From Rubrivivax sp. (GTDB lineage: Bacteria; Pseudomonadota; Gammaproteobacteria; Burkholderiales; Burkholderiaceae_C), in NCBI GenBank assembly GCA_025458805.1, contig JALORQ010000001.1:1-49926 (forward strand): a stretch of DNA of 49,926 nucleotides, written 5' to 3'. The notes under the pieces are model-generated. The model was not told the DNA's origin, did not search any database, and saw only the letters and a program-made list of their open reading frames with translations. Made by a program: the position numbers and the translations under genes. Shown here one piece after another: positions 26,279 through 34,948 of this stretch. The number at the start of each line of letters is the position of its first letter. Positions within the stretch are counted from its first letter, which is position 1.

Positions 26279-27544
26279 TCAGGCGCGCGAAGCGCCGGCG
26301 GCCTCGAGTCCATCGGCCAGACGGGCGCCGAGCCGCGGCACCTGGTGGTCGAGCATCGCGGTCAGGAATGCCGTCTCGACCTGCACGACGATGCGCTCCC
26401 AGTCGAGGTCGAGCGCGCTGAGCCTGGCCTGCGGGCCGAGCCTCGCCGGCAGCTCGGCCTCGGCGCCGAGCTCGCGCGCCGCGCGCACGAAGGCCCCGGC
26501 GTCGCCGGCCGGTACCTTGCGGCCGTTGCGACCGTCGACGACGAGCTCGGACGCCGCGGCATGGTCGAACGCCAGCACCGGCAGGCCGCTGGCCATCGCT
26601 TCGGGCACGACGTTGCCGTAGGTCTCGGTGAGGCTGGGGAAGACGAAGAGGTCACCCGACGCGTAGTGCGCGGCCAGATCCTCGCCGCGGCGCAGGCCGG
26701 CGCAGAGGGCTTCGGGGCAGTGCTGCTGCAGTTCGCGGCGCAGCGGGCCGTCGCCGACCAGCACCAGCCGCCACCGCGCACCGCCGGCGCGCAGCGCGTC
26801 GAAGGCGCGCAGCAGCAGGTCGAGGTTCTTTTCCGGAGCCAGCCGCCCGACGTAGAGCGCGGCCCGGTCGCCGGCGCGCAGGCCCCAGCTCGCCCGCAGG
26901 GCCTCGCTGCGGTGCTGCGGACCGAATCGGCGCGTATCGACACCGCGCGCCACGACGAGCAGGCGCTCGAAGCCGCTGGCGGCGAGCTCGGCGCGCAGCG
27001 CCTCGGTCGGCACCATCGTGAACCGCGTCGCGTTGTGGAAGCGCCGCAGGTAGGCAACGATGGGCTTGCGCAGCCAGCCGATGCCGTAGTGCCGGCTGTA
27101 GGCGTGGAAGTTGGTGCGGAAGTCCGAGGTCACCGGCAGGCGCAGACGTCGCGCCGCCCGCACCGCCGACCAGCCCAGCGGGCCTTCGGTCGCGACGTGG
27201 ACGACGTCGGGCCGCGCGAGCGACCACCGCCTCGCGAGCGCGGCGGCGGCCGGCAGACCCATGCGTAGGTTCGGATACTGCGGGATCGGCAGACCGCGCA
27301 TCAGCAGCTCGCCCAGGCGCGGCGCGTCGCCCGGCGCATCGCCGCGGTGCTGGCGCGGTCGCACCAGCTGCAGGTCGTGCCCGCGCGCATGCAGTCCCTC
27401 GACGACGCGTGCGATGGTCGTCGCGACCCCGTTGACTTCGGGCGGCCAGGTCTCGGTGACGACCGCGATGCGCAGCGAATGGCGGTTCGCCGGCCACTCG
27501 TCGACGAGGAACGGAGCCGGCTCGGCGAGGTTCATGACGCGCAT
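26279..27544 (-). CDS. GT4-family glycosyltransferase (Agt/mannosyltransferase-like)
   Basis: LRIAVVTETWPPEVNGVATTIARVVEGLHARGHDLQLVRP...VVPTEALRAEL..LYVGRLAPEKNLDLLLRAF..FPSLTETYGNVVPEAMASGLPVLAF. Confidence 0.9.
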   Translation of the reverse strand: MRVMNLAEPAPFLVDEWPANRHSLRIAVVTETWPPEVNGVATTIARVVEGLHARGHDLQLVRPRQHRGDAPGDAPRLGELLMRGLPIPQYPNLRMGLPAAAALARRWSLARPDVVHVATEGPLGWSAVRAARRLRLPVTSDFRTNFHAYSRHYGIGWLRKPIVAYLRRFHNATRFTMVPTEALRAELAASGFERLLVVARGVDTRRFGPQHRSEALRASWGLRAGDRAALYVGRLAPEKNLDLLLRAFDALRAGGARWRLVLVGDGPLRRELQQHCPEALCAGLRRGEDLAAHYASGDLFVFPSLTETYGNVVPEAMASGLPVLAFDHAAASELVVDGRNGRKVPAGDAGAFVRAARELGAEAELPARLGPQARLSALDLDWERIVVQVETAFLTAMLDHQVPRLGARLADGLEAAGASRA

Positions 27545-27558
27545 CGTGCCCGGGCATC

Positions 27559-27576
27559 AAGACCGGTCGATGACGG
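27559..27576 (-). promoter_or_regulatory. Candidate Pho box upstream of the GT4 gene
   Basis: Minus strand: CCGTCAT-CGAC-CGGTCTT, 15-32 bp before the annotated start. Confidence 0.35.
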
Positions 27577-27611
27577 ACGCACCTTCCGACCGGGCCGCGT
27601 CGGCCGACGAA

Positions 27612-27640
27612 CCGACACGAGTCGGTCACGCCGCGTTCAC
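27612..27640 (+). promoter_or_regulatory. Candidate Pho box (three 7-mers, 11-bp period)
   Basis: CCGACAC-GAGT-CGGTCAC-GCCG-CGTTCAC compared with CTGTCAY. Upstream of the 27738 gene. Confidence 0.45.
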
Positions 27641-27737
27641 GCGCGCCGCCGAGCATCCTTCCCGCGCCGGCCCCCGGTCAGCGCAAGCCTGCCCGCGGGC
27701 ACCGCCCGCGACCATGCCCCGCCCCAGGAGGACCGCC

Positions 27738-28346
27738 TTGAACTCCTTCCTCGAAGCCCTTCGCGTGCAGCGCTGGGACGACCACCGCTACTACCACCAC
27801 AGCCGCATCAACCAGTCCTTGCACCTGGTCAGCGCGCTGTGCTTCGTCGTCGCATACGGCCTGCTCCTCGTCGACCCGGCGCTTGCAGCGTGGCTGGCCT
27901 GGGGCGTGTCGATGACGACCCGGCAGGCCGGCCACTTCTTCTTCGAGCCGCGCGGATACGACCACGTCAACCAGGCCACGCACGAGCACAAGGAGGAGAT
28001 CAAGGTCGGCTACAACCTCCGGCGCAAGATGGTGCTGATGGCGCTGTGGGCCGCGGCGCCGGTGGCGCTGGTGCTGTCGCCTTCGCTCGGCGGCCTGATC
28101 GAGCCGGCGTCGACGGTCGAGGGCACGCTGCGCGACATCGGCATGGCGTGGCTCGCGCTCGGCGTGGCCGGCCTGCTGTTCCGCACGCTGCAGCTCGCGG
28201 CCACGCAAGGCGCGATGACCGGTCTGGTGTGGGCCACCAAGATCGTCACCGACCCGTTCCACGACATCTGGCTCTATCACAGGGCGCCGCTCGCGCTGCT
28301 GCGCGGCGAGCTGATCGACCCGATGGGGCATGCGCAGCGCCACTGA
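27738..28346 (+). CDS. His-rich polytopic membrane protein, weakly DUF962/Mpo1-like
   Basis: AGGAGG at 27727-27732 precedes TTG at 27738 (ATG 27714 is an alternative). Sequence YYHHSRINQSLHLVSALCFV...GHFFFEP..HVNQATHEHKEE...FHDIWLYH. Confidence 0.6.
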   Translation: MNSFLEALRVQRWDDHRYYHHSRINQSLHLVSALCFVVAYGLLLVDPALAAWLAWGVSMTTRQAGHFFFEPRGYDHVNQATHEHKEEIKVGYNLRRKMVLMALWAAAPVALVLSPSLGGLIEPASTVEGTLRDIGMAWLALGVAGLLFRTLQLAATQGAMTGLVWATKIVTDPFHDIWLYHRAPLALLRGELIDPMGHAQRH

Positions 28347-28434
28347 GCGGGCACCGTGCGCCGAGCGGGCCCTTGCACCTCGAGCCGTGGGCCCCGCCGC
28401 GTCGCGGCGTCGCGCCGCCGGGCGCGCGCGAACG

Positions 28435-30093
28435 TCAGAACTTGTGCGCCAGCACCTCGCGCAGGATGCCGCGGCGGATCGTCCTGTTGCTGGCCGACGG
28501 TGCGCTCCAGAACCAGCCGTCGGCCCGCATCTCGCGGCACGCGGCGACGAAGCGCTCGGCGACGGCGGCAAAGTCGGCCTCGCCGTACGCGAGGCTGAAG
28601 ATCATGCGCCCGCTGCCCACCCAAGACAGCGCCAGCCCGTGGCGGCGCAGGTAGAACTGCAGCATCCAGTGGTAGCGCGAGGGACGCCTGTACAGCACCG
28701 TCCACACGGTCTGCAGGTGGGCCACCTGCACCGGCAGGTTCTCCTCCGCGAGCCAGTGGTTGAGCGCCCGCGCGCGCTCGTTCCAGCGCTCGTCGAGACG
28801 CTCGTACAGCGCCTGCACCTCGGGGCGCTCGAGGCGGTCGAGGAAGGCGCTCATCGCGCCCATCACGTAGGGGTGCGAGTTGAAGGTGCCGCGCGCGAAG
28901 CAGATGTCGGCCGGACGCTCCTCGCGGTAGCGCTTCATCAGGTCGCGGCGGCCGCAGACCACGCCGACGGGCAGCCCGCCGCCCAGCGTCTTGCCGTAGG
29001 TGACGAGGTCGGCCTGCACGCCGAAGTACTGCTGCGCGCCGCCCGGGGCGAGGCGGAAGCCCAGGAACACCTCGTCCATGATCAGCACGATGCCGCGCTC
29101 GGTGCACACCTCGCGCAGCCGCTTGAGCCAGTCGGTGTAGGCGGCGCGGTCGAAGCGGGCGCTGCGGCTGCCGTCGACGAGCGACGAGTCGCCCGGCGCC
29201 GGCCGGTTGGGGTGCAGCGCCTGCAGCGGATTGACCAGCACGCAGGCGATGTCGCGGCGCGTGCGCAGCACCTTCAGCGTGCGCTCGTCCATCTCGCGCA
29301 GCGTGTAGGTCTGCCGCGGCATCACCGGATTGCCGGGGCCGGGCTGCACGTCCTCCCACCAGCCGTGGTAGGCGCCGCAGAAGCGCACGAGGTGCGTGCG
29401 GCGCGTGTGGTAGCGCGCCAGCCGCACGGCCTGCATCACGGCCTCGGTGCCCGACATGTGGAACGACACCTCGTCGAGGCCGGAGATGCGCCGCAGGCGC
29501 TCGATGTTCCCCAGCATCACCGGGTGGTAGCTGCCGAGCACTGGACCGAGTTCGCGCACGAGCGCGCTGCCCTCGTCGATGCAGGCCTTGTAGGTGTCGA
29601 CGCCGAGCAGGTTGACGCCGTACGAGCCGGTCAGGTCGTAGAAGCGGTTGCCGTCCAGGTCGGTCAACGTGACGCCCGTGGAGGCCTGCACGAAGCTGCC
29701 GACCTTCAGGTGCCGGCGCAGGAACTCGCCGTACTGGAACGGCACGCGGTAGGCGCCGGTGAACTGCAGGTCGGACAGCCCCTGAGCGGCCTCGGCGGTG
29801 GCGGCCAGCGATCGCGGGAAGCGCTCGCGGAAGGTCGCGGCGAGCGACTCGAGGCCGCGCCGGCGCAGCTCGACGACGTCGGCCGGGGCGCCGTCGGAGG
29901 CGAAGAAGCGCTGCTCGTCGTAGGCATACCCCGGCAGCCAGGCGGCCACGCGCCTGGCCATGCGCGCGTGGCCGGCCAGCGAGCGGTGCTTGGCGCGCGA
30001 CAGCTCGAGCCGGCGCCACGCCGCGGGTGCGCCGGCGGCAACGGCCGCCGCGGCGGCGAACGCGATCGCGCCGAGGGCAAGGGTGTCGTTCAT
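28435..30093 (-). CDS. Class III aminotransferase (GSA-aminomutase-like), N-terminally membrane-anchored
   Basis: N-terminal hydrophobic segment (TLALGAIAFAAAAAVAAGAPAAW). PLP enzyme motifs GSYHPVMLGN, FHMSGTEAVMQAVRLAR, FCGAYHGWW, IMDEVFLGFR and TYGKTLGGGLPVGVV. Confidence 0.85.
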   Translation of the reverse strand: MNDTLALGAIAFAAAAAVAAGAPAAWRRLELSRAKHRSLAGHARMARRVAAWLPGYAYDEQRFFASDGAPADVVELRRRGLESLAATFRERFPRSLAATAEAAQGLSDLQFTGAYRVPFQYGEFLRRHLKVGSFVQASTGVTLTDLDGNRFYDLTGSYGVNLLGVDTYKACIDEGSALVRELGPVLGSYHPVMLGNIERLRRISGLDEVSFHMSGTEAVMQAVRLARYHTRRTHLVRFCGAYHGWWEDVQPGPGNPVMPRQTYTLREMDERTLKVLRTRRDIACVLVNPLQALHPNRPAPGDSSLVDGSRSARFDRAAYTDWLKRLREVCTERGIVLIMDEVFLGFRLAPGGAQQYFGVQADLVTYGKTLGGGLPVGVVCGRRDLMKRYREERPADICFARGTFNSHPYVMGAMSAFLDRLERPEVQALYERLDERWNERARALNHWLAEENLPVQVAHLQTVWTVLYRRPSRYHWMLQFYLRRHGLALSWVGSGRMIFSLAYGEADFAAVAERFVAACREMRADGWFWSAPSASNRTIRRGILREVLAHKF

Positions 30094-31063
30094 GGACGAT
30101 CCGGATCCGAAGGAGGCCCGATTGGGACCCGCAGGCGTTGACAAGCCGATGAAAGCCCCCGCATGGCGCGAACGGCTGCTGCTGCAGGAGGACCTCAACT
30201 TCCTGCTCACCAACCGCGTGCCGCGGCTGCTGCTGACGCGGCTGATGGGCCGCTTCAGCCGCATCCGCAGCCGGCCCCTCGCGCGGGTGTCGATCGCGGT
30301 CTGGCGGCTCTTCACCGACCTCGACTTCTCCGACGCAGAGACCGACCGCTTCGACAGCCTGCACGCGTGCTTCACGCGCGCGCTCAAGCCCGGGGCGCGG
30401 CCGATCGCGGCGGACCCGCAGGTCGTCGCCAGCCCCTGCGACGCGATCGTCGGCGCCTGCGGCGCCGTGCAGGCGGGCAGCGTGCTGCAGGCCAAGGGCT
30501 TCCCGTACCGGCTCGCCGACCTGCTGGGCCGCGAGGCCCGCGCCGCGCCTTTCCACGAGGGCACCTACGTCACGCTGCGTCTCACGTCCAGCATGTACCA
30601 CCGCTTCCACGCGCCGCACGACGGCCGCGCGGTGCAGGTCACCCACTTCAGCGGCGACACCTGGAACGTCAACCCGATCGCGCTCGCGCGCATCGAGCGC
30701 CTGTTCTGCCGCAACGAGCGCGCCGCGATCGAGTACGTGCTCGACCGCGGCGGCCACCGGCTGATGCTGGTGCCGGTCGCGGCGATCCTGGTGGCCAGCC
30801 TGCGCCTGCACTGGCTGCGGCTGCGGCTGCACACCGGCTACCGCGGCCCGGACGAGATCGCCTGCGACCAGCCGTTCGCGAAGGGCCAGGAGATGGGCTG
30901 GTTCGAGCACGGCTCGACGATCATCGTGCTCGCGCCGCCCGGCTTCGCGCTCGCCCCGGGCATCGCGCCGGGGCAGCGCGTGCGCATGGGCGAGGCGCTG
31001 CTGACGCTGCCCCGCGCGGGCGAGGGGTCGTCACGCGACCGTCATTCCCCCGGCGGAGCATGA
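30092..31063 (+). CDS. Phosphatidylserine decarboxylase-family protein (start 30092 or 30149)
   Basis: CFTRALKPGARPIAADPQVVASPCDAIVG, HEGTYVTLRLTSSMYHRFHAPHDG, and WFEHGSTIIVL, which contains the pyruvoyl-forming GST motif. Confidence 0.88.
   Translation: MDDPDPKEARLGPAGVDKPMKAPAWRERLLLQEDLNFLLTNRVPRLLLTRLMGRFSRIRSRPLARVSIAVWRLFTDLDFSDAETDRFDSLHACFTRALKPGARPIAADPQVVASPCDAIVGACGAVQAGSVLQAKGFPYRLADLLGREARAAPFHEGTYVTLRLTSSMYHRFHAPHDGRAVQVTHFSGDTWNVNPIALARIERLFCRNERAAIEYVLDRGGHRLMLVPVAAILVASLRLHWLRLRLHTGYRGPDEIACDQPFAKGQEMGWFEHGSTIIVLAPPGFALAPGIAPGQRVRMGEALLTLPRAGEGSSRDRHSPGGA
30138..30155 (-). promoter_or_regulatory. Candidate Pho box upstream of the aminotransferase
   Basis: Minus strand: CTTTCAT-CGGC-TTGTCAA, 45-62 bp before the ATG at 30093. 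Overlaps the PSD 5' coding region. Confidence 0.35.
31028..31045 (+). promoter_or_regulatory. Candidate Pho box upstream of the GT28 gene
   Basis: TCGTCAC-GCGA-CCGTCAT, 22-40 bp before the ATG at 31068. Lies inside the PSD 3' coding end. Confidence 0.35.
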
Positions 31064-31067
31064 CGCG

Positions 31068-32270
31068 ATGGATTCGAGCTTCGAGGACGCGGCAAGGCCG
31101 CCGGTCGACGGCGCGCTGCCCGCGGTCGACCTGGTCTACTTCAACGCCGGCGGCGGGCATCGCGCCGCGGCCGAGGCGCTGCGGTCGCTGGCGGCGATGC
31201 AGGGCCGTCGCTGGCGCGTGCGCACGCTCAACCTGTTCGACGTGCTCGACCCGGCCGGCCGCTTCGAGCGCATCACCGGCTTCGCGCCCGAGGACTACTA
31301 CAACAAGCGGCTGGCGCGCGGCTGGACGATCGGCCTGGCGCAGGAGCTGAAGATCCTGCAGGCGATGATCCGCGCCGCGCACCCGTGGATGGTCGAGCGG
31401 CTGGCCGCGCACTGGCAGGCGACGCGGCCCGACCTCGTCGTCTCGCTGGTGCCCAACGTCAACCGGGCGCTGCACGACGGGCTCGCGCGCGGGCGTCCGG
31501 GCGCGCCGTTCGCGACCGTGCTGACCGACTTCGCCGACCTGCCGCCGCATTTCTGGATCGAGCGCGGCCAGCGCCAGCACCTGGTGTGCGGCACCGGCCG
31601 GGCGTACGCGCAGGCACTCGCCGCCGGCCATGCACCGCGCCGCGTGCACCGGGTCTCCGGGATGATCCTGCGGCCGAGCTTCTACGCGCCGCCACGCGTC
31701 GGGCGCGACGAGGCGCGCGCGGCGCTGGGCCTCGACCCCGCGCAGCCGGTGGGCGCGGTGCTGTTCGGCGGCCACGGCTCGCGCGTGATGAAGCGCATCG
31801 CCGCGCGGCTGCCCGACGTGCCGCTGGTGCTGCTGTGCGGACACAACGCCGCGCTCGCCGACGAGCTGCGCGCGCTGCCCGCGCGCGCGCCGCGTGTCGT
31901 CGTCGGCCACACGGCCGACGTCGCACACTACCTGCGGCTGGCCGACTTCCTGGTCGGCAAGCCGGGGCCGGGCAGCGTGAGCGAGGCGCTGCACTGCGGC
32001 CTGCCGGTGATCGTGACGCGCAACGCCTTCACGATGCCGCAGGAGCGCTACAACACCGAGTGGGTGCGCGACCAGGGCGTCGGCCTCGTGCTCGAGAGCT
32101 TCGCGGACATCGAGCCGGCCGTCGCACGGATGCTCGCGGCGTTGCCGTCGTTTCGCGAGCGCGTGCAACGCCACCGCAACCGGGCGGTGTTCGAGGTCGC
32201 GGAACTGATCGACCGATGGCTCGCCACGGCCCCGGTGCCCGAAGGCGCGACGCCGGCCGCGGCCGTCTGA
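31068..32270 (+). CDS. MGDG synthase-family (GT28) glycosyltransferase
   Basis: VYFNAGGGHRAAAEALRSLAA, LTDFADLPPHFWIERGQRQHLVCGT and VGKPGPGSVSEALHCGLPVIV match the GT28/MGDG synthase pattern. Confidence 0.85.
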   Translation: MDSSFEDAARPPVDGALPAVDLVYFNAGGGHRAAAEALRSLAAMQGRRWRVRTLNLFDVLDPAGRFERITGFAPEDYYNKRLARGWTIGLAQELKILQAMIRAAHPWMVERLAAHWQATRPDLVVSLVPNVNRALHDGLARGRPGAPFATVLTDFADLPPHFWIERGQRQHLVCGTGRAYAQALAAGHAPRRVHRVSGMILRPSFYAPPRVGRDEARAALGLDPAQPVGAVLFGGHGSRVMKRIAARLPDVPLVLLCGHNAALADELRALPARAPRVVVGHTADVAHYLRLADFLVGKPGPGSVSEALHCGLPVIVTRNAFTMPQERYNTEWVRDQGVGLVLESFADIEPAVARMLAALPSFRERVQRHRNRAVFEVAELIDRWLATAPVPEGATPAAAV

Positions 32271-32290
32271 CCCGCCCCGCCATCACGAAC

Positions 32291-32319
32291 CTGTCGCGGC
32301 ACGGTCACGCCGCCGTCGC
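32291..32319 (+). promoter_or_regulatory. Candidate Pho box upstream of the PlcP-like gene (three 7-mers, 11-bp period)
   Basis: CTGTCGC-GGCA-CGGTCAC-GCCG-CCGTCGC. Shares the exact 11-mer CGGTCACGCCG with the element at 27623. Confidence 0.5.
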
Positions 32320-32343
32320 CGTTGCAGCGCACCATGAAGGTCC

Positions 32344-33225
32344 ATGCAAAGGGACCTGCCCTTCGACGCCTCGGCGCTCGTCGCCGGCCCGGACGACGGC
32401 CCGCCGGCCCGGCAACGGGTGCGCACCGTCTGGATCTCGGACCTGCACCTCGGCACCCCCGGGTGCCAGGCGGGCGCGCTGCTCGACTTCCTGCGCAGCG
32501 TCGATTGCGAGACGCTGTACCTCGTCGGCGACATCATCGACGGCTGGCAGCTGCGGCGCCAGTGGTACTGGCCGCAGGCGCACAACGACGTCGTGCAGAA
32601 GCTGCTGCGCAAGGCGCGCAAGGGCACGCGCGTGGTCTTCGTTCCCGGCAACCACGACGAGTTCGCGCGCCGCTACGTCGACCACAACTTCGGCGGCGTC
32701 GACGTCGTCGAGGACTGCATGCACGTCACCGCCGACGGCCGGCGGTTGTGGGTGACGCATGGCGACCACTTCGACGGCGTGATCCAGTGCGCCAAGTGGC
32801 TGGCCTACGTCGGCGACTCGGCCTACGAGTTCACGCTGCGCGTGAGCCGGCACGTCAACTCCCTGCGTGCGCGGGTCGGGCTGCCGTACTGGAGCCTGTC
32901 GCGCTACCTCAAGCTGAAGGTCAAGCGCGCGGTGAGCTACGTCAGCGACTTCGAGAACGCGGTGGCGCGCGAGGCGCGCGCCCGCGGCGCCGACGGTGTC
33001 GTCTGCGGCCACATCCACCATGCCGAGCTGCGCATGATCGACGGCCTGCTCTACGCCAACGACGGCGACTGGGTCGAGAGCCTGACGGCGCTGGTCGAGC
33101 ACGACGACGGTCGCCTCGAGATCGTCGACTGGTCCGCCGCCGGCCGCGAGGTCGCGCCGCCGTCCCCTGTGGTCCCGGCGGTGCTGCCCGCCCCTGCGCC
33201 CGCACTCCGCGCCGCGGACGGCTGA
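32344..33225 (+). CDS. PlcP/LpxH-like metallophosphoesterase
   Basis: RTVWISDLHLGTPGCQAGALLDFLRS..YLVGDIIDGWQLRRQWYWPQAHNDVVQKLLRKARKGTRVVFVPGNHDEF..THGDHFD..GHIHHAEL. I recall this as closer to PlcP-type phospholipase C proteins than to canonical LpxH. Confidence 0.85.
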   Translation: MQRDLPFDASALVAGPDDGPPARQRVRTVWISDLHLGTPGCQAGALLDFLRSVDCETLYLVGDIIDGWQLRRQWYWPQAHNDVVQKLLRKARKGTRVVFVPGNHDEFARRYVDHNFGGVDVVEDCMHVTADGRRLWVTHGDHFDGVIQCAKWLAYVGDSAYEFTLRVSRHVNSLRARVGLPYWSLSRYLKLKVKRAVSYVSDFENAVAREARARGADGVVCGHIHHAELRMIDGLLYANDGDWVESLTALVEHDDGRLEIVDWSAAGREVAPPSPVVPAVLPAPAPALRAADG

Positions 33226-33271: not shown

Positions 33272-34948
33272 GTGAGCGCGCGGCATCCGATGCAAGCCTT
33301 CCCCGGTCCGACGACGCTCCTTCGCATCGCCATCGGACTCGTACTCGGGTGCGCGCTGCTCCTCGCGTCGCCCATGCACGCAGCCGAAGGCAACCCGCCA
33401 CGCACGGCGGCGCGCGACGCCGCGCCGGTCGTCATCGACGGGAGCGTGCTGTTTCGCGTCGCAGGCACCGACGCGATGCCCGCGACGCAGCGCGCGCGCT
33501 CGATCGCAGGCCGCATCGAGGCCATCGCCGCCGACCCGAAGGCCGATCCGTCGGCACTGCGCACCGAGGCGAGCGGCCCCTACGTCGCGATCATGATGGG
33601 TTCGCAGCGCCTCCTGCTCGTGGCCGACGAGGACGCGACGCTGGCCGACTTCGACAGCGCCGAATCGATCGCACCGATCTGGGCCGAACGCATCCGCCTC
33701 GCCATCGGCGACTACCGCGCCGACCGCACGCCCGAGGCGCTGCGCACCGGCGCCATTCGTGCCGCGCTGGCGACCGTCGGCTTCGCCGTCGGCGTCTGGC
33801 TGCTGGTGCGGCTGCGGCGGATCGCCACGGGCTGGCTCGACCGCCGGCTGGCCACGCAAGTCACCGACCTCGAGGTGCAGGGCCTGCCGATCCTGCATGC
33901 CGAGCAGATCTCGCGCACCGTGCGCGTGGCGCTGCGTACCGTCTGGGCACTCGCCGTCGTGCTGCTGGCGTTCGTCTGGCTCGATCTGGCGCTGTCGCGC
34001 TTCGTCTGGACGCGCCCGTTCGCCGAGGGCCTCGTCGCGCTGGTCCTCGAGCCGCTCGAACGGATGGGCGCGAGCGCCGTCGACGCCCTGCCCGGCCTGG
34101 CGTTCATCGCCGTCCTCGCCGTCGTCGTCTGGTGGCTGCTGCGGATCGGCGCCCTCGTCTTCGACGCGCTCGGCAACGGCGCGATCCAGGTCGCGGGCTT
34201 CGAGCCCGAATGGGCACAGCCGACCTTCCGCATCGTGCGCACGATGGTGCTGCTGTTCGCCATCGTCGTCGCCTACCCCTACCTGCCCGGGTCGAGTTCG
34301 GATGCGTTCAAGGGCGTCTCGGTCTTCGTCGGCCTGCTGCTGTCTCTGGGCGCTGCGTCGATGGTGGGCAACCTGATCGCCGGCTACACGATGATCTACC
34401 GGCGCGCCTTCCGCGTCGGCGACCGCATCCGCGTGGCCGACCACGTGGGCGACGTGACCCAGATCCGCGCCATGGTCACGCACCTGCGCACGGTGAAGAA
34501 CGAGGAGGTCGTGGTGCCGAACTCCAGGCTGCTCGGCGAGTCGGTCGTCAACTACAGCACGCTTGCACGCCAGGCCGGGCTGATCCTGCACACCACGGTC
34601 GGCATCGGCTACGAGACGCCGTGGCGGCAGGTCGAGGCCATGCTGCTGCTCGCGGCCGGACGCACGCCCGGCGTGCTGGCGGAGCCGCCGCCCTTCGTGC
34701 TGCAGACGTCGCTGGGCGACTTCTGCATCGTCTACGAGCTCAACGTCCACGTCGCCGACCCGCGCGGCATGGATCGCGTGTACAGCGACCTGCACCGCCA
34801 CATCCTGGACGTGTTCAACGAGCACGGCGTGGCCATCATGACGCCGGCGTACGTCGCCGATCCGGCCGATGCGAAGCTGGTGCCGCCGGCGCGCTGGTAC
34901 GAGCCACCGGCACGCCGTCCTGCGGCGGACGGGCAGCGGACGGCCTGA
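33272..34948 (+). CDS. MscS-family mechanosensitive channel
   Basis: GTG start, N-terminal signal-like segment, several TMs, then SLGAASMVGNLIAGYTMIYRRAFRVGDRIRVADHVGDVTQIRAMVTHLRTVKNEEVVVPNS. Confidence 0.9.
   Translation: MSARHPMQAFPGPTTLLRIAIGLVLGCALLLASPMHAAEGNPPRTAARDAAPVVIDGSVLFRVAGTDAMPATQRARSIAGRIEAIAADPKADPSALRTEASGPYVAIMMGSQRLLLVADEDATLADFDSAESIAPIWAERIRLAIGDYRADRTPEALRTGAIRAALATVGFAVGVWLLVRLRRIATGWLDRRLATQVTDLEVQGLPILHAEQISRTVRVALRTVWALAVVLLAFVWLDLALSRFVWTRPFAEGLVALVLEPLERMGASAVDALPGLAFIAVLAVVVWWLLRIGALVFDALGNGAIQVAGFEPEWAQPTFRIVRTMVLLFAIVVAYPYLPGSSSDAFKGVSVFVGLLLSLGAASMVGNLIAGYTMIYRRAFRVGDRIRVADHVGDVTQIRAMVTHLRTVKNEEVVVPNSRLLGESVVNYSTLARQAGLILHTTVGIGYETPWRQVEAMLLLAAGRTPGVLAEPPPFVLQTSLGDFCIVYELNVHVADPRGMDRVYSDLHRHILDVFNEHGVAIMTPAYVADPADAKLVPPARWYEPPARRPAADGQRTA

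Follow-up and report, generated by a model that had tools for sequence, protein, structure and literature searches.

Remodelling of membrane lipids by PlcP and Agt under phosphate limitation is established in Methylosinus trichosporium, roseobacters and Agrobacterium (PMC9239053); a Methylosinus plcP-agt mutant lacks a glycolipid and shows poor growth when phosphate is low, and type Ia methanotrophs carry other diacylglycerol (DAG) glycosyltransferases near plcP (PMC9239053). Here we describe a six-gene locus in a 49,926-nucleotide stretch of DNA from Rubrivivax sp. (assembly GCA_025458805.1, contig JALORQ010000001.1, positions 1 to 49,926; hereafter, the window) that resembles PlcP-Agt remodelling in having a PlcP-like phosphoesterase, a GT4 glycosyltransferase (joined here by a DAG-type GT28 enzyme) and a phosphate-gene context, but that adds a conserved cassette lying outside the described pathway. 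The cassette encodes an Mpo1-like, His-rich membrane protein (HISM), a class III aminotransferase (AT) and a pyruvoyl decarboxylase of the phosphatidylserine decarboxylase (PSD) family. We consider the locus a probable variant of phosphate-limitation lipid remodelling, with a predicted product-making role for the HISM-AT-PSD triad, and put the probability that it combines membrane remodelling with an aminolipid branch supplied by the triad at about 0.55. Ornithine-lipid synthesis (OlsB/OlsA) also yields a phosphorus-free aminolipid under phosphate limitation, as proposed here, and has no enzymes in common with the locus. We found no published description of a HISM-AT-PSD cassette in a literature that was mostly open-access, which is weak evidence of absence.

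Conservation and phosphate context of the cassette

The preliminary description of this DNA read the locus as a lipid-remodelling island of six genes. All six open reading frames were confirmed at the positions and strands it gave, and its direction was right, as judged by genomic context, conservation and the distinction of the phosphoesterase from LpxH, but it named the wrong genes as the unit. The six do not travel together: the conserved core is HISM-AT-PSD, usually with GT4, whereas PlcP is optional and GT28 restricted. These conclusions come from 125 AT loci of Burkholderiales, Bradyrhizobium-like and other Alphaproteobacteria, and some Gammaproteobacteria, including the best 80 of more than 570 candidate stretches retrieved by an AT search of named genomes. 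HISM and PSD flank AT in every one of these loci that is not ended early by a contig edge, and GT4 adjoins the triad in most. The neighbourhood thus recurs well beyond this strain, in more than 120 loci of Alpha-, Beta- and Gammaproteobacteria, which is far above chance.

AT itself is carried by 28 of 249 genomes of the order and 26 of 399 genomes of the phylum; carriers include Variovorax, Curvibacter, Pelomonas, Paucibacter, Hydrogenophaga, Rubrivivax and Limnohabitans, as well as Dechloromonas, Bradyrhizobium, Roseomonas and Acidisphaera. Among the genomes of the order, HISM was found in all 28 that have AT and in a single further one (G064). In that 2.0 Mb genome, a truncated HISM and AT remnants lie beside intact-looking GT4, PSD and PhoX genes (L176, G064:C1:1487000-1505000), with PhoU and PstB at greater distance; the remnants look like joint decay of the cassette.

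Two architectures were observed. All Betaproteobacterial and most Alphaproteobacterial loci have fixed strands (HISM +, AT -, PSD +), such that AT lies antisense between co-directional HISM and PSD genes, and the start codons of AT and PSD are near each other or overlap. In the second, found in an f79/gamma group (L169, L170, L171 and L173), AT, a PHP-like/GT4 fusion gene, PSD and HISM are co-directional in that order, and in L169 and L173, the two that were read throughout, AT, the fusion gene and PSD overlap or are separated by very short gaps. Because this operon includes GT4, we assign GT4 to the core. Divergence of AT correlates with that of PSD across loci (r = 0.80).

The genes that recur around the cassette are PhoX, PstA/PstB, PhoU, PhoR, PhnC/D/E, Ppk, Ppx, OlsB, PmtA and LplT, several of which (e.g., Pst, Phn, Ppk and Ppx) were named by reading their sequences rather than by family search. 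We tallied neighbours at an identity of at least 40%, counting PlcP and leaving out LplT as possible clade synteny. At least one PlcP, PhoX, Pst/PhoU/PhoR, Phn, Ppk, Ppx, OlsB or PmtA gene was present in 78 of the 125 AT loci and in none of ten control loci centred on LpxH, a small set drawn from ten of the same genomes; related loci, moreover, do not count independently. The cassette's partners in other genomes are phosphate-starvation and lipid genes, which supports the reading given in the preliminary description. A phosphate acquisition or storage gene was present in 27 loci, an OlsB-like gene in 15, LplT, a lysophospholipid transporter, in 32, and a PmtA-like gene, which joins the cassette in Alphaproteobacteria, in 18. 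The PlcP-like gene lies within the fetched neighbourhood of 43 loci, at many positions and on both strands, and is present in 26 of 28 AT genomes versus 100 of 221 others (Fisher p = 9e-7). PHO-box-like sites, defined as matching 12 or more of 14 positions, occur 5' of HISM or GT4 in 17 of 94 loci compared with 20 of 1044 other upstream regions (p = 4e-10); the controls were real upstream regions, and several of the high-scoring ones belong to phosphate genes. We consider a phosphate-linked role in lipid metabolism likely for the locus.

Assignment of the individual proteins

Pfam and NCBIfam scans agreed with the family names proposed earlier for every gene of the locus except HISM. PSD matched PS_Dcarbxylase at 189 bits and TIGR00163 at 150.7 bits (cut-off 111.75), its D117, H173 and S275 are invariant in the alignment, the GST cleavage site is present, and its best solved relative is E. 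coli PSD; by profile and motifs, its membership in the phosphatidylserine decarboxylase family is clear. It differs from the E. coli-type enzyme in being locked to AT and HISM and in having a second copy in the same genome, on another contig. This second copy makes it likely that the cassette PSD has a dedicated substrate or condition.

AT matched Aminotran_3 at 104 bits and retains the lysine (Lys368) that binds pyridoxal phosphate (PLP). It is not the glutamate-1-semialdehyde aminomutase (GSA-AM) of the heme pathway (167 bits versus an equivalog cut-off of 527). Its best solved relative by profile is the AMT domain of mycosubtilin synthase (MycA; 222.7 bits, versus 156.4 for the best GSA-AM), which is also closest in fold to the AT model (6kfm; TM-score 0.82, E 3.8e-28). 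The MycA AMT domain aminates a beta-ketoacyl chain. The two proteins align at the PLP lysine and are both probably lipid-facing, whereas AT is a stand-alone protein that has some 100 additional residues and carries a hydrophobic helix at its N-terminus, and, unlike the assembly line that contains MycA, the recurrent neighbours of the AT loci include no polyketide synthase or nonribosomal peptide synthetase genes. In nearly all of the 107 members this N-terminus is of moderate hydrophobicity, and the model shows residues 2-34 as one long helix, such that the earlier description of AT as membrane-anchored is likely to be right.

HISM was previously called a His-rich membrane protein, and this can now be refined: PF06127 (Mpo1-like) matches 24 of 24 aligned members (best 8.7e-6), although the window copy, which gave no significant family match by itself, is at 18.6 bits under the curated cut-off of 24. 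HISM shares with Mpo1-like 2-hydroxy-fatty-acid dioxygenases this weak but universal match, conserved histidines and a multi-helix membrane topology, suggesting that it is a divergent member; it differs in being about twice the length of the profile and in occurring essentially only with AT. A search among solved structures with its AF2 model (pLDDT 86.6) found no structural relative (best E 0.74).

The window GT4 (Pfam GT4 domains, 110.8 bits) has lipid glycosyltransferases as its best NCBIfam matches (GlcN-PG synthase and MGlcDAG synthase), all below their cut-offs. Its domains and its linkage to PlcP are those of Agt-type enzymes, and we regard it as a putative DAG glycosyltransferase. In several Alphaproteobacterial loci (including L157, L158, L160, L161 and L162), HISM-AT-PSD is directly preceded by an Agt-like GT4 (36-38% identical to that of the window) and by a gene for a PmtA-like methyltransferase, possibly one of the additional Pmt genes known from Bradyrhizobium. 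The fusion protein of the co-directional operons (911-958 amino acids; L169:5908-8784 and L173:6375-9110) has an N-terminal domain that we call PHP-like by its motifs (DLHCH, VTNHN and GSDDH), Pfam giving no match; it may join a phosphoesterase and a glycosyltransferase in one chain, like PlcP plus Agt. GT28 matched PF06925 (MGDG_synth) at 29.3 bits, just over the cut-off of 25, and was found in 13 of the 80 named loci, all in a Rubrivivax-like subset, and in none of 27 loci of the order. It is a local addition to the cassette.

The metal ligands of the phosphoesterase (D33, H35, D63, N103, H104, H139, H223 and H225) are invariant, and the enzyme presumably resembles rhizobial PlcP. The preliminary description had raised the concern that it might be a true LpxH and the genome's only copy. 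It scored 36-44 bits against LpxH models with cut-offs of 134-190 (36 bits versus the 190-bit cut-off) and 34 bits against solved LpxH, and each of the ten relatives checked has an LpxH besides, which exceeds the cut-off in nine and reaches 188 bits in the tenth; in seven of the ten the PlcP-like protein appears as a second, weak match. We conclude that the phosphoesterase is not LpxH. It is the sole LpxH-model match in its own assembly, which is 76% complete; LpxB is present there and the profile search gave no LpxH above cut-off, which probably reflects an assembly gap, the other explanation being that another enzyme performs the LpxH step.

Proposed pathway and alternatives

We propose that at low phosphate the PlcP-like enzyme would cleave phospholipids to DAG, to which GT4 (and in the window also GT28) would add sugars, giving a glycolipid as in PlcP-Agt remodelling. 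In the second branch, HISM would oxidise a lipid to a carbonyl, membrane-bound AT would aminate this carbonyl, much as its MycA-type relative acts on a beta-ketoacyl chain, and the PSD-type enzyme would decarboxylate an alpha-amino-acid-type headgroup to a primary amine, with N-methylation by the PmtA-like enzyme added in Alphaproteobacteria. A PmtA-like gene joining the cassette is expected if the cassette product bears an amine. Whether the triad produces or modifies a lipid that bears an amine seems to us evenly balanced; the order of its steps and its exact product are guesses, and the step order as drawn is rather unlikely to be right. Tentatively, and at less than even odds, many Burkholderiales and Bradyrhizobium-like bacteria may use the Mpo1-like/AT/PSD core to build a membrane lipid of a class not yet described, amine-bearing and free of phosphorus, that replaces phosphatidylethanolamine (PE) or phosphatidylcholine (PC) when phosphate is limiting and is N-methylated where PmtA-like enzymes join. 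Known phosphorus-free bacterial lipids stem from a handful of pathways. The cassette is conserved in bacteria that are common in fresh water and soil, probably including some Bradyrhizobium; it points to one more such lipid, which current lipidomics may overlook, and names candidate genes for it.

Several observations count against the proposed pathway. If AT produces a beta-amino acid, PSD cannot act at the same centre; a beta-aminoacyl product is not a PSD substrate, such that a simple AT-then-PSD order may be wrong and the two enzymes may work at different sites of the molecule. The Mpo1-like assignment of HISM is weak, the divergence correlations of AT with HISM (0.47) and with GT4 (0.42) are modest, and shared ancestry inflates the counts of loci and genomes. 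Neither GT28 nor, in most loci, PlcP adjoins the cassette. Finally, the PHO-box-like site in the window is weak, and 8% of ordinary upstream regions score equally.

Alternatively, the triad could serve aminophospholipid turnover, with a stress-regulated PSD supplying PE (and, with PmtA, PC) while AT and HISM edit or recycle phospholipid headgroups or acyl chains during and after phosphate stress. The cassette PSD exceeds the phosphatidylserine decarboxylase equivalog cut-off with all catalytic residues in place, and PmtA-like and LplT genes near the triad (18 and 32 of the 125 loci) also count in its favour, but the position of LplT may be clade-specific synteny, the genome already has a second PSD, it is not obvious what AT and HISM would do in plain PE synthesis, and the linkage with phosphate-saving genes speaks for phosphorus economy. 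We consider this explanation rather unlikely, if the best of the alternatives. Less probable still is that the triad modifies acyl chains, with AT forming beta-amino fatty acyl groups, the Mpo1-like protein oxidising hydroxy-fatty acids and PSD working in parallel, the outcome being an amino- or shortened-acyl lipid. The closeness of AT to a beta-ketoacyl aminotransferase domain and the relation of HISM to 2-hydroxy-fatty-acid dioxygenases fit such chemistry, yet the three genes are inseparable, which makes a bystander PSD unlikely, and the clustered neighbour families include no recurrent acyl carrier protein, ligase or ketosynthase. In favour of coincidental housekeeping neighbours, the genes flanking the six in the window (CopA, MscS-like, FeoB and acyl-CoA ligase) are unrelated to them and not conserved with them, but coincidence is very improbable for a triad found in more than 120 loci across three proteobacterial classes and co-occurring in 28 of 28 AT genomes; it is refuted for the triad only, and may still explain GT28 and the exact position of PlcP.

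Organization of the locus in the window

The features of the locus are listed in Table 1. With the more likely, conserved start of PSD, its start codon and that of AT are separated by 55 bp.

Table 1. Positions of the cassette genes and associated features within the window.
Feature	Position	Strand	Basis or remarks
GT4 glycosyltransferase, Agt/monoglycosyl-DAG-synthase-like, 421 amino acids	26279..27544	-	Pfam GT4 domains
Weak PHO-box-like site, GT4-HISM intergenic	27559..27576	-	11/14 positions
HISM, Mpo1-like His-rich membrane protein, 202 amino acids	27738..28346	+	TTG start, AGGAGG upstream
AT, class III aminotransferase, predicted membrane-anchored, 552 amino acids	28435..30093	-	Catalytic Lys368
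PSD, type I PSD-family pyruvoyl decarboxylase	30092..31063 (start likelier ATG 30149)	+	TIGR00163
GT28, MGDG-synthase-type glycosyltransferase, accessory	31068..32270	+	PF06925
PlcP-like metallophosphoesterase	32344..33225	+	Calcineurin-like phosphoesterase profile, metal-ligand motifs

Among the other neighbours of AT in the wider set is a recurrent 284-amino-acid protein with no Pfam match (L077:7349-8203; cluster 12, 8 loci). In the window, the MscS-like channel gene (33272-34948) lies directly 3' of the phosphoesterase gene, and it is not conserved with the cassette, which it accompanies in one of 80 loci.

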